A stretch of 64,000 bases of DNA from Isoetes taiwanensis. Lineage: Eukaryota > Streptophyta > Lycopodiopsida > Isoetales > Isoetaceae. The stretch spans positions 9,269,003-9,333,002 of the forward strand of contig JAJEKV010000006.1 in the NCBI GenBank assembly GCA_021234155.1, in the 5' to 3' direction. Shown here piece by piece: positions 548 to 39,998 of this stretch. The notes below the pieces were generated by a model, which was given only the letters and a program-made list of their open reading frames with translations, was not told the DNA's origin and searched no databases. Each line of letters opens with the position of its first letter. Position 1 is the first letter of the stretch. The position numbers were made by a program, and so were the translations under genes.

Positions 548-886
548 CTAGGGCAAAGGCAACTTCAAGGTGTGCTGGACAACGGGCAATTGTTTACCCC
601 ATCTAAGCTTGCCCTTGAGCACATCATATGCGTGGGTGTCACCCCCTAGCATATCTCGGACTACATCCCGTTCTAGATACAACTGGGGAGGTTCCCCAAA
701 AGGAGTACACAGAGGGAGCATCTCCTTTGTGTAAAACTGTAGGAATCCGGCATAATCTGGGTGCCTCTGCATATTAGAGATGAGGTCGAGGCGCTGACAT
801 AAAAAGGGCCGTAACAGGTCGAAGCACACCTGTGGATCCCAATGCTCTCCATCCTGGTACCATGCAAGTAGGTCGGTGGCAGCCAT
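548..886 (-). pseudogene. Second ORF of family-A copy 1, N-terminal part, frameshifted
   Basis: The likely start is the ATG at 886 (MAATDLLAWYQ), in a good plant context with G at +4. The frame can be extended upstream to 997, but that stretch is low-complexity leader. It encodes about 112 residues rich in aromatic and charged residues (DLLRPFLCQRLDL, GFLQFYTKEML), then ends in TAG at 550-548. The shifted frame continues as a plausible protein (AHLEVAFALAIL), so a one-base indel around 575-595 is likely. This ORF follows the H3-like frame by about 190 bp of AT-rich spacer. No known domain was recognised. Confidence 0.5.
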
Positions 887-1075: not shown

Positions 1076-1591
1076 CTAAGGACGCTCTCCCCGAATCCTG
1101 CGGGCGAGGGCCAAATCCTTTGGCATTATGGTGACTCTCTTTGCGTGGATAGTGCAAAGATTCGCATCACCAAAAAGTGCCACCAGGTAGGCTTCTGCAG
1201 CCTCTTGAAGCGCTAGGATGGGAAAAGTCTGGAAGCGGAGATCGGTTTTAAATTCTTGCGCTATCTCCCGAACCAACCTTTGAAAAGGCAGCTTCCGTAT
1301 CAGAAGTTGCGTGGACTTCTGAAACTTACGGATCTCCCGTAAGGCCACGGTACCGGGTCGGAACCGGTGGGGTCTCCTTTGTGGAGCAGGGTTGGGAGGC
1401 GGCCCCCTTTGCCGTGGTATCGTCTTGGCCCCAACAACAAGACGGGGCCGGGAGGCATCCACCCGCTCCTGTCTCCGGCTGGAACTCGCGTTCTTCTCAA
1501 AAGCTCCGACAGTCTTCAACTTCTCCTTGTACTGGCTACCGGACTTTCGGGCTACGGCTTTTCTCTGGTGCTTAATGGGCGTCCGGTCCGT
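1076..1591 (-). CDS. Histone H3-like domain segment of the retrotransposon ORF
   Basis: This 171-codon segment has no ATG and follows in frame directly after a TAG at 1594-1592. Its last ~100 residues are an almost intact histone H3 fold: [15 protein letters not shown] (alpha-N), [21 protein letters not shown] (canonical loop 1), [15 protein letters not shown] (alpha-2), [16 protein letters not shown] (L2) and ARRIRGERP at the end. Visible differences from textbook H3 include Y to F in alpha-N, TFPI before alpha-2, GLFED changed to ALFGD, and a final P. The ~70-residue tail is not a normal H3 tail: it is basic, proline-rich and without the usual lysine spacing, but contains one ARKS. The frame ends in TAG at 1078-1076. 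No introns interrupt it. It sits in the first ORF after the PBS of an LTR element, so it is retroelement-borne, not a normal histone gene. Whether it is translated is unknown. Confidence 0.8.
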
Positions 1592-1882
1592 CTAATTCGG
1601 CCACTGCTCATTCTCTGGTCCCCCATTACCCTGCTGGTCCTGCTGTTCTTGTCGGGCCTTCTCCTCCTTTTCCTTTTGGATCCTTTCCTGCTCCTCCCGG
1701 AACTCCCGAGCTCTCCTGAGGTCTTCTTCAACCTCATTGTACCGTCTCTCTACAATGCGGCGAAGGAGTTCAGCGTGGTATCGATTGGGCCGCTGGCTCA
1801 TATCAATCTGGATCATCGTCAGATAATCCAGGCTGATGTCAGGAATCTCTCCCCACATGAAGCTCTGGGAAGCTTCATGCCA
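1592..1882 (-). CDS. Charged helical segment of the retrotransposon ORF
   Basis: This 96-codon segment is in the same minus-strand frame as the segments on both sides, bounded by TAG at 1885-1883 and TAG at 1594-1592. It reads WHEASQSFMWGEIPD, then MSQRPNRYHAELLRRIVERR, then a long E/R/K/Q run (VEEDLRRAREFREEQERI, KEKEEKARQEQQDQQ) that should form a coiled coil or single alpha helix, ending in a Gly/Asn/Pro-rich linker. It directly precedes the H3-like segment. A multimerisation linker, as in some Gag proteins, is plausible but not shown. An internal ATG at 1858 or at the MSQRP codon could start translation separately. Confidence 0.5.
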   Translation of the reverse strand, partial: WHEASQSFMWGEIPDISLDYLTMIQIDMSQRPNRYHAELLRRIVERRYNEVEEDLRRAREFREEQERIQKEKEEKARQEQQDQQGNGGPENEQWPN

Positions 1883-2341
1883 CTAAAATGGGGGAATCTC
1901 GATTGCCCTGCCGTCAATGACGGCGACTCCATCTCCTAAATACCTATACTCTCGACCTCGAGCCGCCGTATCGGCTCGTTCTATCTCTCTGCGGTCATCC
2001 TCCCTGGCCAAGTTCTGGATACGGTCGGCCTCTGTTCTTATGTCCTCCTCTTCAGTGTGGCCCTCACATTCAGGAGGATAGAATTTAATCAACATCATGA
2101 CCAGGTCAGGCTGCTCGGCCATGGTATAAGGAAGCTGTCGGAGATTTAACCTAACCAAAAATGACTCTAAGTAATGGTAGATTGGATAGGGTATCCTAGC
2201 GTTGTTGGCAAATCTATTTACCAACTCATCTAGAAGTATGTCAATCGAAGCAGGATCAGTAGCCATATGTTGGGCGATCAAAGCATAGATCTGGGCTATA
2301 GTGAGGGTAGTGGGGTCCACGGTACTCTTGGTGGTGGCCAT
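1883..2341 (-). CDS. N-terminal segment of the retrotransposon ORF (152 aa)
   Basis: This is the first ORF after the PBS. The ATG at 2341 lies in a strong context (GCTATGGCC), giving MATTKSTVDPTTLTIAQIYA. The segment is mostly helical in character (IDILLDELVNRFANN, LVMMLIKFYPPECEGH) with an acidic end (HTEEEDIRTEADR) and stops at TAG 1885-1883. The next two segments are in the same frame, so the ancestral product was probably one ~420-residue protein: N-terminal domain, charged helix, H3 fold. I do not recognise the N-terminal domain. Position suggests Gag or an extra 5' ORF. Confidence 0.5.
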   Translation of the reverse strand: MATTKSTVDPTTLTIAQIYALIAQHMATDPASIDILLDELVNRFANNARIPYPIYHYLESFLVRLNLRQLPYTMAEQPDLVMMLIKFYPPECEGHTEEEDIRTEADRIQNLAREDDRREIERADTAARGREYRYLGDGVAVIDGRAIEIPPF

Positions 2342-2599
2342 AGCTATGGCGCTGAGGTCTAAGGCGGCGGGTAGTGAGGCGCTTGCGATTAGGAAGACGG
2401 TAGGGAAGGCGCTAGGGGTAGAGAAGGCGGGAGAGAAGAACCAGAGTGGGAAAACAAAAGCGAGTCCGGTAGCTATGGCGGGCGTCAGACCTAGCGGGCG
2501 GAGGCGTGGTAAAGCAAAAAAAATGAACGGCCGCCTACCTCTTAAAATTTTAAAAGTTTACTTTTTTTTTTTAAAAAAAAAGATAATTATACGGCGGGA

Positions 2600-2809
2600 A
2601 TATGCGCAATTATACGGTCGGGTGCCGACGGCATTCTAGGCGCTCCCACCGTGACTGTAGGTCGGTAAAAAGCAAGCGGCGCCCGGGTTGACTTTCGGGC
2701 CGAAATACGCGCGATTATATGGTCGGGCGCCGACAGCATTATACGCGCTCCTACCGCGGCTGTAGATCGAGAAAAAGCAAGCGGCGCCCGAGTTGACTTT
2801 CGGGGCCCC
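2600..2809 (-). repeat. Two 105-bp tandem repeats in the retroelement leader
   Basis: Two diverged copies (2600-2704 and 2705-2809) share ATTATA-GGTCGGG, GCCGAC-GCATT, GCGCTCC-ACCG, AAAAAGCAAGCGGCGCCCG and GTTGACTTTCGGG. They lie between the PBS and the first ATG. Tandem GC-rich repeats with W-box-like TTGACT cores in a leader may act as enhancer or packaging sequences; the repeat is observed, the role is guessed. The flank 2540-2580 is an A/T homopolymer tract. Confidence 0.7.
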
Positions 2810-2812
2810 TCC

Positions 2813-3100
2813 TTGACTCCTTTCCGCCTGTTGATGACCCTCCTAGGGTTTTCGGATATGCCCGATCCATTGGAATCACTTTCACCTTCATCTGAACTAC
2901 CTACAAAAAGTTATAGCCCCTCCAAACTTGGGTCCTCCGGTTGCCCTAAACCTCTTAAAACTTACAATCTACTACATCAACCTAGCACAAAACCAAACAT
3001 CAAAGAGTTAAACAATCACACTAGTTTAAACTTCCACCTAACTACCGAACTAACGAGTTAGAATTTGGTCAGTGCTATGATTTCGAGCAATCGAAATCAC
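2813..3100 (-). other. Leader sequence between the PBS and the tandem repeats
   Basis: This stretch belongs to the untranslated leader of family-A copy 1. A short open frame on the plus strand has no recognisable features and is opposite to the element's direction. The part next to the PBS (about 3045-3100) resembles the corresponding part of copy 2 (20985-21030): both have AACGAGTT and AGTGCTATGAT. Confidence 0.5.
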
Positions 3101-3113
3101 GGCTCTGATACCA
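3101..3113 (-). other. Primer-binding site (initiator tRNA-Met), family-A copy 1
   Basis: Read on the minus strand this is TGGTATCAGAGCC, the classical plant iMet PBS, one base inside the LTR end. The same site flanks copy 2 at 21031-21043. It fixes the element's orientation as right to left. Confidence 0.9.
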
Positions 3114-5600: not shown

Positions 5601-6179
5601 AATCTAATAAGGAAAAAATCGTATGCTGTTCTGTATGCTTTGTGTTGAAGATTTTGAATGCTGGTAAACAATTATTTTAAAGAACCTAATTGTTCTTGAA
5701 ACCTTAAGCTATTGTTCAATAGTTGGTATTCCTTGAAGTCCTTATTTACTCTTTTCTATCTTCTTGCAGTTAAGGCTGGATATTGCAACAAACTGGCATT
5801 TTTGATAAGCATATTTTGTTTAAGCTTTCAAACTTAAGTTTCATTATGAAGAATGCAAACATTAAATATAGCTACTCTTAGCTAAAGTTTTTGAGAAAAC
5901 AATTATTTATGGAGACTATAGTATGATCTATTGCTTGAAGCTGAAAATCCATTGTAATTGCAGCTATTTTAGAATTTAGAACTGTTTTTAAAAATTGGCA
6001 TGAAGTACTTAACGTACTATACCTTAAGTACGTATTTTACGTATTTTACAAGTATTTAACAAATACGAAAAATGTATTTAAAGTACTTTTAATCTAGGAG
6101 GTATGGAACCCGTATTAGTACGTTAAATACGTACCGTACCCGTATCGTACCTGACGTACCTGACAACACTGACTGTGAC

Positions 6180-7759
6180 GCTCCCAGAACATATACGACG
6201 CTCGGCCGTATATGTACGGGGACTTTCCCCTCCCATGGCGACCATCTCGCCATGAGCAGGGCCCTCTGTCTATCCCAGGCCATCTATAGAAAGATACCCG
6301 AGTGAAGGACACAGAGGGGTCATTCGGCCCACGCCTTCAATGGGACTCCTAAGTCGCGGAAGCATGAATACAAGGTTAGCACACATCATAAATCATATAT
6401 AAATAATCACCACGAAGGGTGGCACATCCATCCAAGTATCAACGGCAAAGAATATGCATCTAATCCTAAGGAAACACCCTAAACCCCAGCTTCTACCCCG
6501 GTTCAGACTCCTGTGAGGATGGACTGACGGCTCGGTCTCAAGAGATCAGCAGACAGAGGTATAACCTGGCGTTGGCTGGCATAGAACAGTGGCTAGGGTT
6601 GTCCACTCCATCCGCCCCTCCTGTGCACACTTTGCAGATGGGTCGATTCACGCTATGGCTTCGCTATAGCCTTCCGGAGACGCAGACTCAAGGTATCACC
6701 CTTTGAGCCTACTCCAGGGTCCATGACGCCCCGGTCCGATGAGGCAGGTCAGGGAAGCGTCCCCTTCCAGGATCACAGTGGTTCCATGGGTGAGCTAGGG
6801 AATACGTGCCGCATCAGCGACCCCCGCATCCGTACCCAACTTACTCACCCTAAATCTAATCAAAGTGCATGGTGCCCCATACGGGTCACACCACTACACC
6901 AGTGTCGGACCCATACCGGCCCTCTCGTGACTGGCTATCGGGCCTAGCCCATTTGTAGGAGTCTCGGCCGACCTTTTATGTTCATGCAAGACCCCACCCC
7001 ACTTCACCACTTCGTCCCTTTTTGGTGCTAAGGCATTCCATAGCATCTACGACCGGTGGTCTCTTGTACACAAAGCATAAAATAATGGGAAATACAGGGG
7101 ATCAACCTAGGAGTATACTACTAACATGGCTCAGAGGTCTCTACCCCCTTAATTCCCCATTTCCAGAATAATACTATGCAAAGAACTAATAATCCATCCT
7201 TTAAGAGCAAAACCAGAATCAGAGATAAAGAGAACTCACCTTTGCAATCAAGGGTTAGTTCCTACAAGTAAACACAAAGAGAACAGAAGAAATAAACACT
7301 ACAAGTGCCCAACAAGGGCGCTACTCTAGAAATATCAAGCTACACTAACCACCCACCCTCGAAGTTCCTCATTGGATCCGTTGCCATTTGGTGCTTCCAT
7401 CTTCCCTGGACTTGGCGCTCAGCTCTGGACACACAGGTAAAGGTGCTTGGCAAGGTGGGCGCTCAGCTGCTGCTCCTCTTGATCGATTTTGGGAGTCAAT
7501 CAGGGCCTAGGGATCAAGTTGATGACCCAAATTGGAACTTCCCATGCTGGCGAATCGAGCTAGGCCAGGTGGCGCTCCCCTAAATAGCCAATTAGTATTA
7601 TTCAATTAATTGGATAATTATCCTTTAATGGTTAATTTAGCATAGCTCAATTAATCCCTTTTAGGTCAATGTCAAAATACCCCATGGTGGCGTACCTTTA
7701 CTGGTGACGTGTCAGTATATTATTTATACGTATCCCGTATAAATCCATGGAACGTCATA
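6180..7759 (-). repeat. 5' LTR of family-A copy 1
   Basis: Together with 3115-3120 this is a ~1.59-kb LTR. On the plus strand it begins TGTGACGCTCCC and ends GGAACGTCATA, the same ends as the other copies (GGAACGTCACA). The GCCGTATATGTACGG palindrome near the start and CCCCTCCCATGGCGACC are conserved in all copies. The ORFs here lack protein-like character and are LTR sequence read through. Confidence 0.85.
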
Positions 7760-10718: not shown

Positions 10719-11570
10719 TCATGCCCAGTCAGAATCAGAATAGCCAAGAAGATTTGTAGTGTCCTTTGCATTGTACATGATGCCATAATCAATTGTGCCA
10801 GCAAGATACCCGAGACATCTTTTGAGGGCAGTGCAATGAGATTGTTTTGGGGAGACTGGGAATTGACTGAGTTTACATATGACAAGAGACAGATCTGGTC
10901 GTGTGGTCAGGGCTGCAAAGTTCAGTGATCCAATGATGCTTCGATAATTGTCACAAAAGTACTGCATGTTTGGGGAACATTCTGGATCATTTGGAAGCAG
11001 AGATAGATTTGTTTCCATGAGTGTTTTAACTGCATGACTGTCAGAAAGGCCAAGATTTTTTATTAGATTCTGCAAGTATTTGGTCTGTTTCATGGACAAG
11101 GTTCCATTTAACTGATCATATGAAATTTCTATGCCAAGAAAATAATGTACCTGGCCAAGATCTTTCATCTTGAAATTGGCTTGAAGCTGGGGATTTTAGA
11201 AGGTTGAGGTCCTTTTCATTGGCTGCAATGATGAGAAGACCATCCACATAACATATAATAAATACTGGTGAGACATCATGACGAATGTAGATGCTGGGAT
11301 CTACATGACTAGGAATGAATAAGAGATCAGTTAGGGTTTGATGGAGCTTAGCATACCATGCACGAGGTGCTTGTCACATCTAATTGATGAATATGGAAAT
11401 GATTTTTGGTGGCATGAGCAAGCAAGACTCATATTGAAGTCATTATGGCTATTGGGGCATATGTTTGATCAAAATCAATTCAGGAATTTGGCTAAAACCC
11501 TTGGCTACAAAGAGTGCTTTGAAATGTGATATTTCTCCAGCAGAGTTGTATTTGAGCTTGAAAACCCACC
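10719..11570 (-). pseudogene. Copia reverse transcriptase (degenerate)
   Basis: The 3' part is clear at 11168-10719: MKDLGQVHYFLGIEISYD, KYLQNLIKNLGL, RPDLSLVICKLSQF, CLGYLAGTIDYGIMY, DSDWA. Upstream, near 11270-11220, the catalytic box reads YVDGLLIIA, so the usual YVDD has lost its second Asp. Further upstream the frame is broken. Confidence 0.85.
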
Positions 11571-11579
11571 TAGATCCAA

Positions 11580-12818
11580 CTACATGGTGATTTGCAGGCC
11601 TGGGGACAACATTCCAAGTATTGAGATCAGGAAAGTTCTTTGGTGTAGGTCAAATAACCTATAGGCTTTTTGAGTTGTGCAGTAGCCAATAAAAATACAG
11701 GCCTTTGATTTGGCAAAAAACTTTGGCTGATTGAGAACAAGTGCAAAAGCAAGACAACCAAAAACTTTTAAATGCTTGAGACTTATAGATCTTCTTGACC
11801 AAACTTCTTCTGGCAGCTGATTGTTGATACCACTGTGAGGAATTCTGTTTGTAACATACACTGCAGTAAGGACAGCTTCCCCCCAAAATTCTGCTAGAAC
11901 TTGTCGAGCACTGAGCATTGTTCTGGCCATCTCAATAATAGTCCTATTTGCACACTCTACTCTGCCAGTTTGTTCAGATGTATTGGGAGTTGTGATCTGA
12001 TGCAGAATCCCTTCTCTTGTACAGAAATCCTTGAAGGCATTTGAAGTAAATTCTCCACCTTCATCGCTTCTGAGAACAACTAGTTTGTTGCCTGTAGATC
12101 TCTCTACTTCAAGAAAAGCTGTAAATTGTGTGAAGGCCTCACTCTTGTTGTGTAGCATATACACAAAATGCTTTCGAGAGTAATCATCCAAAATCAACAT
12201 AAAGTATCGGGCTCCTTGCAGAGTTGAGGGTTTGACTGGTCCACATAAGTCGACATGAAGTAATTCAAGAGTTCTGGATGTTTTGGAGTCAGAAACAAAG
12301 AAAGAGGTACGAGTGATTTTGTTCTGGAGACAATGGCTGCATGGTAATACTGAGGAGGATTTATCAGGCAAGTACCCTTTGTGGATCAAGTGATCGATGC
12401 ATGCAGATGAAATGTGGCCAACTCTAGAGTGCCATAAAGCTTGAGGAGTATTCAGCACGGCAAGATTTACTTCTTCAAAAGCACTTGCAATTTGATAGAG
12501 ATTACCTTGTCGAGTGCCTGTAAGTATAATTTCCTCAGCAGCATTTCGGATGTGATAGAGATCTGTTTCAAATGAAACAACAAGTCTTGCATCAGTAATT
12601 TTACTTATACAGACAGTAATCCGGGAACATGCAATACATCCTTCAGAAGTTTGTGAACACCAGACTTGGTCAGAATTTTTACTGTTCCAATCCCTTTGGC
12701 ACGTTGAAGATGATTGTCTCCCATGCGAACAGTTTGATCCTCGTTCAGAGATTGGTAGATAATGAAGTTTCTTCGGATGGGAGTCATATGACAGGTTGCA
12801 CCAGAGTCTAGAAACCAT
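11580..12818 (-). pseudogene. Copia GAG-pre-integrase and integrase
   Basis: This 412-codon frame contains ALWHSRVGHIS and PCSHCLQNKI (H2C2 zinc-binding region), then the DDE core: HVDLCGP and LDDYSRKHFVYML (first Asp region), LRSDEGGEFTSNAFKDFC (second Asp) and QTGRVECANRTIIEMARTML (Glu). Integrase inserts the cDNA into host DNA. The core residues are retained, but the downstream frame degenerates. Confidence 0.9.
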
Positions 12819-12889
12819 ACAGGTCCTGCATTGGATACTTCAGTGAGTGCAGCACAAAAATAATCCATAGCCATGTTGCTTTGCTCCAT
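12605..12889 (-). pseudogene. Copia aspartic protease segment
   Basis: WFLDSGATCHMTPIRRNF contains the retroviral-type DSGA active site followed by the copia CHMT motif. This is the protease that cuts the Gag-Pol polyprotein. It overlaps the integrase segment in another frame, so a frameshift separates the two. Confidence 0.85.
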
Positions 12890-12899
12890 AGTAGGCTCA

Positions 12900-13471
12900 G
12901 ATTTAGCAACTGGTGCCGGTGCTCTGCAATCTCAGGCTAGATATCCCTCCTTTTGACATCTATAGCAAGTAAATTTCTTGGCTTTCTTACCTTGACTCTG
13001 ATTTCCTCGAGCATCTTTACTGGAATTTCTTCGAGTATCTGCAACCATAAGGTCATCATGAGGACGAGATTGTTGTCTCTATCTCAGAGACTCAATTTTG
13101 ATTCTCTCATAAGCCGTGTCAAAGGTATAGACATCAAGTCTACCCTCAAAAGAGATCACCAAGTCTTCATAAGATTTAGGACGGCTATTGAGCAGCATGC
13201 AGACTTTCTCGTCCTCACTAATTTCGCCTTCAGTGGCACACAAATCATCCAGCATATCTTTCAATTTACAGACATGCTCAAGCAAATCACCTCCTTCAGA
13301 TAGTTGGAGTTCATACAGACGCTTCCGCAGCACCAGACGATTTCCAGCAGTGGCAGACTCATAGTGAGATGTAAGGGACTCCCACGTAGCTCGGGCAGTT
13401 GGGGGGCCCTTCACAATGTGTGCAGGAACATCGTCAAGGCTCGTTATCAAAATAACTGAGCTTTACGATCC
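12900..13471 (-). pseudogene. Copia Gag, C-terminal part
   Basis: The frame 13450-13079 reads VPAHIVKGPPTARATWESLT, LRKRLYELQLSEGGDLLEHV and SYEDLVISFEGRLD, typical of the UBN2-type copia Gag. Near 12960-12915 a zinc knuckle remnant CYRCQKEGYLA, stop, DC is visible. The start of this part (GAA AGG GAT CGT AAA GCT CAG, ERDRKAQ) joins the other gag part at 26821 across the nested insertion. One indel near 13450 breaks the frame. Confidence 0.85.
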
Positions 13472-13476
13472 CTTTC

Positions 13477-15155
13477 TGTGACGCTCCCTGAATATATACG
13501 GCACCCGGCCGTATACATACGGGGACTTTCCCCTCCCATGGCGACCACCTCGCCATGAGCAGGGCCCTCCGTCTAACTCGGGCCATCTATAAAAGATGCT
13601 CGAGTGAAGGACACAGAGGGGTCATTCGGCCCACGCCTTCGATGGGGCTCCGTCGCGGAAGCGTGAATACAAGGTTAGCACACAGCATAAATCATATACA
13701 AATAACTACCACGAAGGGTGGCACATCCATTTAGATACCAACGGCAAAGAATATGCATCTAATCCTAAGGAAAACACCCCAAACCCCAGGTTCTACCCCG
13801 ATTCAGACTTACGGAGGGTAGACCGACGGCTTCGGTCTCAAGAGATTAGCGGACATGTAGGTATAACTTTGGCGTTATCGGCATAGAACATCGGCTAGGG
13901 TTGTCCACTCCATCCGCCCCTCCCGTGCACACTTTGCGGATGAGTCAAATCATGCTATGGCATCACTATAGCCTTCCCACACACAGACTCAAGGTATCAC
14001 CCTTCCCAGCCTACTCCAGGTTCATGAAGCCCCGTCCGATGAGGCAGGTCGGGAAGTGTCCCCTTCAGGATCACAAAGGTTCCATGGGTGAGCTAGAGAA
14101 TACGTGCCGCATCAGCGATCCCAAGATCCGCACCCCAACTTACTCACCCTAAATCTACTCAAAGTGCAAGATGCTCCATACGGATCACACCTCTACACCC
14201 GTGGAGTGTCGGGACCCATACCCGCCCCTCACGCGACCCGGCCATCGGCCTAGCCCACCAGTAGGAGTCCCAGAGCCTTTTATGTTCGTGCAAGACCCCA
14301 CCCCCACTTCACCACTTGTGTCCCTTGTTTGGTGCTAAGTCATTCCATAGCATCCACGACTCGATGGTCTCTTGTACACAGGCCGCATCTAATGGGAAAT
14401 ACATGGATCAACCTAGGAGCATACTACTAAACATGGCTCGTAGGTCTCTACCCCCCCTTAATTCCCCATTTCCCAGTAATACTATACAAAGGACTATCAA
14501 TCCATCCTTTAAGAGCAAGACCAGAATCAGAGATAAAGAGAACTCACCTTTGCAATCAAGGGTTAGTTCCTACAAGTAAAGCACAGAGAGAACGGAAGAA
14601 ATGAACACAACAAGTGCCCAACAGGTGTGCTACTCTAGAACATGAAGCTATACTAACCACCCACCTGAGTTCCTGCTGGATCCATTGTCATTTGGTTCCC
14701 TGGACTTGGCGCTCAGCACTGGACACATAGGTAAGTTAGGCGCTTAGCAAGGGTAGGCGCTTAGCTGCTGCTCCTCCTGGTCGATTTGCTGAAGGGTGCC
14801 TGGCTGCTGCTCCTCCTTCTCCATCTCCAATTGCTCCTAATTCGAATTGGGGCAAATGGGGGTGCAAAACCCCAATTTGGGTCCCAAGTTAGTAACCCTC
14901 CCTTGCCCAATCGATTTGGGCCAGGTGGCAGCTCCGGGTTGGCTAATATTAACTAATTTGGTGTTTTAGCCCCTTTTAATATTAGTTTAAGCCCTAAATT
15001 CGAGTTAGGGTTTAAGGTTAGGTTTCCACCTTCATAATTTAATTATTAACATAGCTAACTTTAGCTTATGAATAATTAATGTGCCATTAATTATTCATAG
15101 TGACGTGTCATGTATTTATACTTAAAAAAGGCATATAAATATGTGGAACGTCACA
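13477..15155 (-). repeat. 3' LTR of family-A copy 2
   Basis: The LTR is intact at 1679 bp, beginning TGTGACGCTCCC and ending GTGGAACGTCACA on the plus strand. It is followed by the polypurine tract (plus-strand TTCTCCCCACCTT). Small open frames inside it are shared with the other LTR copies and are not genes. Confidence 0.9.
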
Positions 15156-21030: not shown

Positions 21031-21043
21031 GGCTCTGATACCA
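21031..21043 (-). other. Primer-binding site (initiator tRNA-Met), family-A copy 2
   Basis: Reverse complement of TGGTATCAGAGCC, one base from the LTR start at 21045, identical to copy 1. Confidence 0.9.
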
Positions 21044-21044
21044 C

Positions 21045-22518
21045 TGTGACGCTCCCTGAATATATACGACACCCGGCCGTATACATACGGGGACTTTCCC
21101 CTCCCATGGCGACCACCTCGCCACGAGCAAGGCCCTCCGTCTAACTCGGGCCATCTATAAAAGATGCTCGAGTGAAGGACACAGAGGGGTCATTCGGCCC
21201 ATGCCTTCGATGGGGCTCCTACGTCGCGGAAGCGTGAATACAAGGTTAGCACACAGCATAAATCATATACAAATAACCACCACGAAGGGTGGCACATCCA
21301 TCCAGATACCAACGGCAAAGAATATGCATCTAATCCTAAGGAAAACACCCCAAACCCCAGGTTCTACCCCGGTTCAGACTCATGTGAGGGTAGACTGATG
21401 GCTCGGTCTCAAGAGATCAGCAGACAGAGGTATAACCTGGCGTTGGCTGGCATAGAACATCGGCTAGGGTTGTCCACTCCATCCGCCCCTCCTGTGCACA
21501 CTTTGCAGATGAGTCGAATCATGCTATGGCATCACTATAGCCTTCCGGACATGCAGACTCAAGGTATCACCCTTCGAGCCTACTCCAGGGTTCATGAAGC
21601 CCCGTCCGATGAGGCAGGTCGGGGAAGTGTCCCCTTCCAGGATCACAGTAGTTGCATGGGTGAGCTAGAGAATACGTGCCGCATCAGCGACCCCCGCATC
21701 CGTACCCAACTTACTCACCCTAAATCTACTCAAAGTGCAAGATGCTCCATACGGATCACACCTCTACACCCAGGGAGTGTCAGACCCATACCCGGCCCTC
21801 TACGTGACCGACTATTAGACCTAGCCCACTGTAGGAGTCTCAAGAGCCTTTTATGTTCGTGCAAGACCCCACCCCCACTTCACCACTGTGTCCCTTGTTT
21901 GGTGCTAAGTCATTCCATAGCATCCACGACTCGATGGTCTCTTGTACACAGGCCGCATCTAATGGGAAATACATGGATCAACCTAGGAGCATACTACTAA
22001 ACATGGCTCAGAGGTCTCTACCCCCCCTTAATTCCCCCATTTCCAGAGTAATACTATACAAAGGACTATCAATCCATCCTTTAAGAGCAAGACCAGAATC
22101 AGAGATAAAGAGAACTCACCTTTGCAATCAAGGGTTAGTTCCTACAAGTAAAGCACAGAGAGAACGGAAGAAATGAACACAACAAGTGCCCAACAGGTGT
22201 GCTACTCTAGAACATGAAGCTATACTAACCACCCACCTGAGTTCCTGCTGGATCCATTGTCATTTGGTTCCCTGGACTTGGCGCTCAGCACTGGACACAT
22301 AGGTAAGTTAGGCGCTTAGCAAGGGTAGGCGCTCAGCTGCTGCTGCTCCTGGTCGATTTGTTGAAGGGTGCCTGGCTGCTGCTCCTCCTCCTCCATCTCC
22401 AATTGCTCCTAATTCGAATTGGGGCAAATGGGGGTGCAAAACCCCAATTTGGGTCCCAAGTTAGTAACCCTCCCTTGCCCAATCGATTTGGGCCAGGTGG
22501 CAGCTCCGGGTTGGCTAA
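21045..22518 (-). repeat. 5' LTR of family-A copy 2, first part
   Basis: This matches 13477 onward of the 3' LTR nearly base for base up to GGTTGGCTAA, where a Helitron interrupts it. The remainder is 26608-26815. Confidence 0.9.
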
Positions 22519-39528: not shown

Positions 39529-39998
39529 GGCTCCAAATTGGGCGCACGACCTTGAGAGAGATATCTAGAGTGGATGAGGGGTGTCAAGCTAGCATGTCCA
39601 TGCACACAAGGTCCCAAATTGGATGCCTGTCCAATTTGAGGTACATGGAGAATGTCAAACAAGCATGTTGCTTGCACACAGGAGCTCCAAATTGGACGCC
39701 TGCGAAATTTGGACTTTGAGAGAGAGATGTCTAGAGTCGATAAGGGGGTGTCAAGCTAGCATGTTCCCATGCACGCAGGGTCCCAAATTGGGCACCCACC
39801 CATGAGGGATAGGGAGAATGTCAAACAAGCATGTTGCTTGCACACAAGAGCTCCAAATTGGGCGCCAACCCAATTTGAACTTTGAGAGAGATGTCTAGAG
39901 TCGATAAGGGGGTGTGAAGCTAGCATGTCCCATGCACACAGGGTCCCAAATTGGGCGCCCATCCAATTTGGGGGACATGGAGAATGTCAAACACGCAT
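39515..39998. repeat. Three ~160-bp tandem units with CAAATTGGGCG palindromes
   Basis: Units start with TTGCTTGCACAC at 39515, 39668 and 39834. Each contains GAGCTCCAAATTGG, GAGAGAGATGTCTAGAGT, AAGCTAGCATG, GGTCCCAAATTGG and AGAATGTCAAACA. The CAAATTGGGCG and CCCAATTTG parts form imperfect inverted repeats within each unit. Confidence 0.85.

Follow-up and report, generated by a model that had tools for sequence, protein, structure and literature searches.

A large lineage of Ty3-type LTR retrotransposons in the quillwort Isoetes taiwanensis, a lycophyte, encodes a chimeric protein as its first gene after the primer-binding site. This protein (ORF1) consists of an N-terminal domain (N-domain), an acidic linker, a basic tail and a histone H3 core. 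The lineage is described here from one copy in a window of 64,000 nucleotides, which is the whole stretch of DNA that was analysed, and from its relatives in the host genome, for which the window's own assembly was searched. The first-pass annotation of the window had reported an intronless H3 fold in the first ORF of an LTR element, and this was borne out. The frame on the minus strand from 2341 to 1079 joins H3 with the N-domain and a charged segment, and its last segment matches the histone family PF00125 of Pfam with an E value of 1.1e-39 over residues 57-167 of 171. The parts of the window copy are as follows.

3102..3113, minus strand: primer-binding site TGGTATCAGAGC, an exact match, 772 bases ahead of the ATG at 2341
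2342..3101, minus strand: leader from the primer-binding site to ORF1, parts of which are 75-92% identical to other window-type leaders
2341-1079, minus strand: whole frame of ORF1, one frame with two in-frame TAG stops; terminal stop at 1076-1078
1886..2341, minus strand: N-domain of ORF1, 152 amino acids to the first stop, of no known family
1883..1885, minus strand: in-frame stop TAG that interrupts ORF1 in the window copy
1595..1882, minus strand: charged segment of ORF1, net charge -7
1592..1594, minus strand: in-frame stop TAG that interrupts ORF1 in the window copy a second time
1373..1591, minus strand: basic tail ahead of the H3 core, net charge +15, with the canonical H3 tail lost as judged by eye
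1079..1372, minus strand: histone H3 core of 98 residues, from Pfam, the PDB and comparison with plant H3.3
548..886, minus strand: first part of ORF2, of no known family, 57-58% identical to ORF2 of loci L009 and L023
3..593, minus strand: second part of ORF2 in another frame, 45-48% identical to ORF2 of L009 and L023

Because of the two in-frame TAG stops in ORF1, the window copy is a broken one. Its ORF2 is also broken and continues past window position 1, with the remainder in locus L029. Within 8 kb, only a gag fragment was detected, with no protease (PR), reverse transcriptase (RT) or integrase (IN), and a search of the 8 kb on the pol side revealed no second LTR. The first-pass annotation had placed an initiator-Met type primer site and its LTR upstream of ORF1. 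The site is present, and we take it to be of the initiator-Met tRNA type, but the LTR beside it was not confirmed in the window copy. The sequence beyond the site matches none of 31 other loci (11 of which are represented by about 0.7-0.9 kb of LTR), nor does it match the family-A LTRs elsewhere in the window. The flank is therefore not of family A as had been assigned, although other copies of the window subfamily do have such LTR ends. The leader contains a tandem duplication of 107 bases (window 2593-2804) whose units are 85% identical. A similar duplication is seen in L026 and L041, and several other leaders seem to have one unit.

Further repeats occur elsewhere in the window. LTR-like copies of 1.3 kb lie at 6172-7489, 13476-14787 and 21043-22359; relative to the first, the second shows 86% identity and the third 89%. 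A primer site lies at 21043 in the third copy, whose LTR end, GAGCGTCACA, is typical of the H3 elements. Searches for ORF1-3, gag and pol at E 1e-4 gave no match in the interior between the second and third copies, and it may for this reason be a non-autonomous or nested derivative. Open frames with Ty1/copia-like pol fragments, recognized by eye, are found close to family-A LTR copies at 10719-13462 on the minus strand. A pair of 89-base direct repeats, 89% identical and with starts 166 bases apart, is located at 39637-39891.

The identity of the H3 domain is clear from several comparisons. Its best match in the PDB is histone H3.3 (7ux9) with an E value of 5.5e-52, followed by H3.1 with 2.5e-51. 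The window core is identical to plant H3.3 at 83 of 98 positions without gaps, and six element cores are identical at 82-86 of 98, also without gaps. A88P and A111T are present in the window core and absent from the five other element cores compared. Compared with plant H3.3, the element H3 has an N-terminal extension of about 300 amino acids, and the canonical tail is gone. When 20 ORF1s were set by eye against the host H3 tail, short tail motifs only were recognized, and the modifiable N-tail with K4, K9, K27 and K36 was not. Within the core, the recurrent differences from H3.3 are T107A (30 of 30 element H3s and none of 43 cellular H3s), V89I (28 of 30), I124L (26 of 30) and a change of residue 105 (30 of 30). 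The centromeric variant CENH3 is marked by a diverged core with a longer loop 1. The element core is not of this kind: it is gap-free against H3.3 over 98 columns, and its best PDB matches are H3.3 and H3.1. When long proteins only were searched with the H3 part, 5358 matches were obtained, the best 120 of which are by name mostly H3, CENH3-labelled or uncharacterised gene models. Phages gave no match to the H3 part. AF2 models of the window N part and H3 part, made without alignment, had pLDDT values of 55 and 52, which are too poor for use.

The arrangement recurs across the genome. A search with PF00125 found at least 150 loci, all above the cut-off. The top 15 are alike in score, and the eight of these that were inspected are ordinary H3 genes; among the other 135, 36 lie in open frames of 400-494 amino acids. 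Twenty of these 36 long-frame loci (L009-L028) were picked by H3. All 20 have an ORF1 ending in H3, with frames of 403-494 amino acids, that of L013 continuing beyond H3. An exact primer site is correctly placed in 13 of the 20, and ORF1 starts about 600-780 bases further on. The LTR end before the primer site is GCGTCACA in 12 of these 13 and GCGTCATA in L024. ORF2, ORF3 and gag were detected by tblastn in 19, 16 and 18 of the 20 loci, respectively, some of the matches being short.

Since L009-L028 were chosen by H3, searches with the N-domain only were run as a control against bias. The window N-domain is present at no fewer than 150 loci, and all 150 scored loci match with 79-100% identity. 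In all 12 of the best window-type copies (window included), H3 lies directly behind the N-domain; several of these copies have stops or frameshifts. The N-domain of another subfamily, A, likewise matched at least 150 loci (150 of 150 scored, 62-100% identity), and the two locus lists have zero overlap. When every 15th of the 150 subfamily-A loci was taken, blind to H3, nine of the 10 loci in this sample (L043-L052) contained H3. Four of these cores are unbroken and five are frameshifted or decayed; L044 has no H3 within 1 kb of its N-domain. Frames of at least 400 amino acids occur at 56 of the 150 loci of the window subfamily, B, and at 54 of the 150 loci of subfamily A, frames with counted stops included. 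The loci of both subfamilies are spread over many contigs. The samples picked by N-domain cover subfamilies B and A, and all copies of the third subfamily, C, were picked by H3. Recurrence in 12 of 12 and nine of 10 copies picked by N-domain excludes a chance origin of the arrangement. Two outcomes had been named in advance as contrary to the first reading, namely an H3 present only once genome-wide and other copies with an ordinary gag in its place. Neither was found, as H3 is repeated in the genome and is present in all 12 of the best copies of the window subfamily.

The gag-pol genes downstream of ORF1 are of the ordinary Ty3 type. Ty3 capsid gag and protease are encoded in L011, L019 and L026, RT in L011 and L019, and RNase H (RH) and the integrase zinc domain in L011. 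The order of domains above the cut-off in L011 is PF19259, PF08284, PF00078, PF17917 and PF17921. The integrase core PF00665 is just below the cut-off in L011 (E 6e-7) and also in L026. The capsid gag families, PF19259 and PF03732, are found in separate genes downstream of ORF1, and zinc-knuckle matches in gag are weak and below the Pfam cut-off. The whole element L011/L030 covers 11,169 bases, with a 5-base target duplication, CAATC. It has two LTRs that are 95.6% identical (K2P 0.046) with the ends TGTGACG..GTCACA, and it contains ORF1-H3, gag and pol, the latter with a stop between its two frames. The integrase carries a chromodomain (PF00385, E 6e-9) at its C-end in L030. This is the sole element traced to its 3' end, and the results on the LTR pair, the duplication and the chromodomain rest on it. 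It is a Ty3 element with LTR ends TG..CA, a 5-base duplication, gag, the order PR-RT-RH-IN and a chromodomain. The typical gene order ORF1-ORF2-ORF3-gag-pol was assembled from several loci; L011 has no ORF2 or ORF3 match by tblastn, so the five-gene order comes from the others. Chromoviruses, such as those surveyed in lycophytes and mosses (PMC2864245), share the LTR ends, the primer site, capsid gag, PR-RT-RH-IN and the chromodomain, whereas the H3 element adds ORF1-H3, ORF2 and ORF3 before gag. The part of the survey available to us describes additional ORFs of unknown function and no histone ORF, the word histone occurring once, with regard to chromodomains reading marks (PMC2864245).

The fusion partner of H3 had been annotated as Gag-like, and this claim was given up. 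The N part and middle part of the window ORF1 match no gag family in Pfam up to E 1, the matches being weak and unrelated, and capsid gag, protease and RT follow downstream as separate genes. Since capsid gag has its own downstream gene, H3 is part of an extra first gene and not of Gag. The whole ORF1 of L019 gave histone-fold families and one weak unrelated match in Pfam. For the N-domain of subfamily A, a search that requires shared five-residue words in a set of 5.8 billion proteins left none of 2195 candidates at E <= 1. Profile searches of the PDB with the ORF1 N-domain and ORF2 had best E values of 0.42 and 0.28, which were taken as chance, and comparison of the two profiles with each other gave a probability of 0.2. 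ORF2 (about 470 amino acids) and ORF3 are two further uncharacterised proteins between ORF1-H3 and gag in most of L009-L028. A protein search with ORF2 found a single relative, P0121, on a 2.95-kb ENA contig; it is 42% identical and about equally distant from ORF2 of all three subfamilies. The C-end of ORF2 looked by eye like a diverged H2A. This candidate was rejected, with a profile probability of 0.1, no PDB match up to E 10 and no Pfam histone family in any of 10 members.

ORF1 of the 20 loci L009-L028 falls into subfamilies A (13 copies), B (one copy) and C (six copies), and the window and its relatives belong to B. Median identity between subfamilies is 31-35% in the N-domain and 83-90% in the H3 core. 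A tree was made of 73 H3 cores (30 element, two host and 41 other cellular), with the window-type copies L036 and L042 excluded for their split H3. The 30 element H3s lie on one side of a branch and the 43 cellular H3s on the other, with support of 99/98. Warnings from the tree program concerned the small number of columns, a bootstrap that had not settled and the meeting of long branches (C with cellular H3s and B with A), which may produce false joins, and the split is therefore good but not final evidence. E77 is found in 26 of the 30 element H3s and both host H3s and in none of the 41 others; this distribution suggests that the capture took place in the lineage of the host. Because H3 is present in all three subfamilies and the element H3s are separated from the cellular ones in the tree, a single old capture is likely, with a host-like H3 as the probable source of the core. 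Between element and host H3s, pN is 0.10-0.13 and pS is 0.89-0.93, which is saturated (five A, one B and five C copies, picked by H3 and with an open frame, against three host genes). The saturation argues for an old capture, and the copies compared give no sign of recent refreshing from the host.

Substitutions within the subfamilies tell how the parts of ORF1 are kept. In the H3 core, pairwise NG86 omega has a median of 0.037 in A (66 pairs, 12 copies) and 0.021 in C (10 pairs, five copies), values that are biased downward because H3 score and an open frame were the criteria for choosing the copies; L017 (A) and L022 (C) are left out of these sets. The corresponding values are 0.114 and 0.092 for the N-domain, 0.242 and 0.130 for the linker, and 0.133 and 0.225 for the tail. 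Pooled pN/pS in the 12 B copies picked by N-domain is 0.104 for the N-domain, 0.177 for the middle, 0.292 for the tail and 0.138 for H3, in a set that is biased toward a conserved N-domain and has nine stops inside these segments. The tail is more variable than the H3 core in all three sets. The first-pass annotation had described the H3 core as better kept than its surroundings and had explained this by past selection or recent capture. The description holds for the H3-picked A and C copies but fails against the N-domain in the N-picked B copies. As to the explanation, selection agrees with the low omega of the core, and recent capture is contradicted by the saturated pS. The tree and the substitution counts together support the view that the H3 core has long been under purifying selection.

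The rest of the element is distributed differently over the subfamilies. The six C copies are 44-45% identical to A copies in ORF1 and 38-46% in ORF2. Identity to A in ORF3 is 76-85% in five of the six and 58% in L022. In gag it is 80-92% in L023-L025 and 35-64% in L018, L021 and L022; in the RT part, it is 92-93% in L023-L025, 86% in L021 and 54% in L022, with no match in L018. A copies themselves are 76-87% identical to L011 in gag and are thus as variable among each other as C is against A. ORF1 and ORF2 are strongly diverged between subfamilies, and the better copies are closely similar in ORF3, gag and RT, which suggests cassette exchange. The closest 150 RT loci listed show 96-100% identity. 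An N-domain lies upstream of at least 25 of them (A in 12 and B in 13; 21 of the 25 at 5.7-6.0 kb), and a listed ORF1 or H3 lies upstream in at least 37 of the 150. Closely similar gag-pol thus carries all three ORF1 versions. From the several ORF1-ORF2 cassettes on such gag-pol, we infer recombination between ORF2 and ORF3. ORF1 and ORF2 may be a working pair.

With a probability of roughly 60%, we propose that the ORF1 protein is an H3 variant borne by the element, whose H3 core forms a pair with host H4 and so brings the protein into nucleosomes. Host histone chaperones would handle the core, and nucleosomes containing the ORF1 protein would form either on newly made element DNA or in host chromatin. 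The N-domain would be the element's own attachment. Judging from nucleosome structure, the kept core presumably includes the interfaces with H4 and with a second H3. Because conservation is higher in the fold core than in the tail, a nucleosome part fits better than plain DNA-binding or use of the tail as a decoy. Among the possible purposes, we tentatively favor escape from silencing, at somewhat less than even odds. Nucleosomes with the element H3, which is without the normal K9/K27 tail, could resist the H3K9 methylation that silences the element. This benefit is preferred by analogy with unintegrated retroviral DNA, which, in the part of the report at hand, is loaded with H3, marked by H3K9me3 and silenced (PMC8621569). 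A fuller account, which we hold to be possible though short of probable, is that ORF1 is a self-made nucleosome part. It would combine an H3 variant with the element's N-domain, be deposited, and have been long selected and swapped together with ORF2 as a cassette on nearly constant gag-pol, diversifying against silencing.

The main rival, which we regard as rather unlikely, assigns the protein to targeting. The ORF1 protein would sit in host nucleosomes and its N-domain or tail would draw the integrase, so that H3 would be a self-made landing pad. The chromodomain of an integrase is a reader of H3 tails, and one is present at the integrase C-end of L030. By eye, the window-type tails keep ARKS, a motif like that around H3 K9 and K27, in 10 of 12 copies, yet the aligned A and C tails have no intact ARKS motif. 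It is improbable that the H3 domain serves to bind nucleic acid in the virus-like particle or on the cDNA and forms no true nucleosomes. Net charges in the two copies computed (+15 to +17 in the tail and +8 to +10 in the core) and the weak zinc-knuckle matches in gag would suit such packing, but a basic tail alone would suffice for it, and the core is nearly as in H3. We give a similarly low weight to a decoy that sequesters H4 of the host, its histone chaperones or enzymes that modify H3 and thereby weakens silencing everywhere, without deposition at the element. An H3 core and an acidic linker are present, as a decoy might need, but sequestering of enzymes that act on the tail would conserve it, and the tail varies more than the core; this does not speak against titration of chaperones or H4.

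A functionless passenger, captured and copied along, is very improbable, even though the window copy is broken, as is a fair share of the sampled copies, and five of the 10 sampled A copies have a broken H3. The core omega of 0.02-0.04 in H3-picked copies and the pN/pS of 0.138 in N-picked copies speak against it, as do the retention of H3 in all three subfamilies, the saturated synonymous divergence from host H3 and the long frames at more than 50 of the 150 N-domain loci in both B and A. The chance that ORF1 is an N-extended host H3 variant whose repeats are merely near retroelements is negligible in spite of its host-type H3 sequence, being contradicted by the start of ORF1 about 600-780 bases after the exact primer site where one is present, the gag and pol that follow, the scatter of the loci over many contigs and the full element whose two LTRs and 5-base duplication enclose ORF1-H3 and gag-pol.

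Core histones encoded by selfish elements are known from viruses, such as the histones of giant viruses and the bracovirus H4. The carriers in these cases are DNA viruses, not retroelements. Retroelements read chromatin through chromodomains. The nearest precedent of the H3 element is a hAT transposon with an H3-like gene (H3L) in the fungus Pyrenophora tritici-repentis, in which an H3-like ORF is likewise mobile and multicopy and came to notice through an excess of PF00125, as far as the consulted part of the report describes (Manning et al. 2013, PMC3538342). According to the same part, hAT-H3L is a DNA transposon with H3L as a separate ORF, and its 26 very similar copies indicate recent spread (PMC3538342). 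The element described here is instead a retroelement with an in-frame fusion, old and diversified, and with measured purifying selection. An assignment to the hAT-H3L type, with hAT transposase and terminal inverted repeats, was rejected, as the element has LTRs and reverse transcriptase. A Ty3/gypsy element of orchids with a captured AlkB m6A demethylase has similarly retained a host domain as part of an extra ORF; in the accessible part of that report, the domains listed are CHROMO, PMD, AIR1, AlkB, G-patch, KOW, ArgoL2 and B3, with no histone among them (PMC9289625). The term histone is absent from the part at hand of a review on extra ORFs of plant LTR elements (PMC7264820). It is also absent from the main text of the Isoetes taiwanensis genome paper, which gives Gypsy elements as 10.7% of the assembly (PMC8566536). 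In what was seen of the open-access literature, no histone-encoding retroelement was found.

Repeats can thus conceal many histone-like open frames. That H3 has changed so little over a long evolutionary time suggests manipulation, by the element, of the chromatin in which it resides. If this is true, an element that supplies a core histone would write chromatin as well as read it, and its H3s would be a collection of variants, arisen in nature and shaped by selection, in which the fold persists and the tail has been lost. It would also become directly testable whether mobile elements make nucleosomes of their own to escape silencing or to steer integration.
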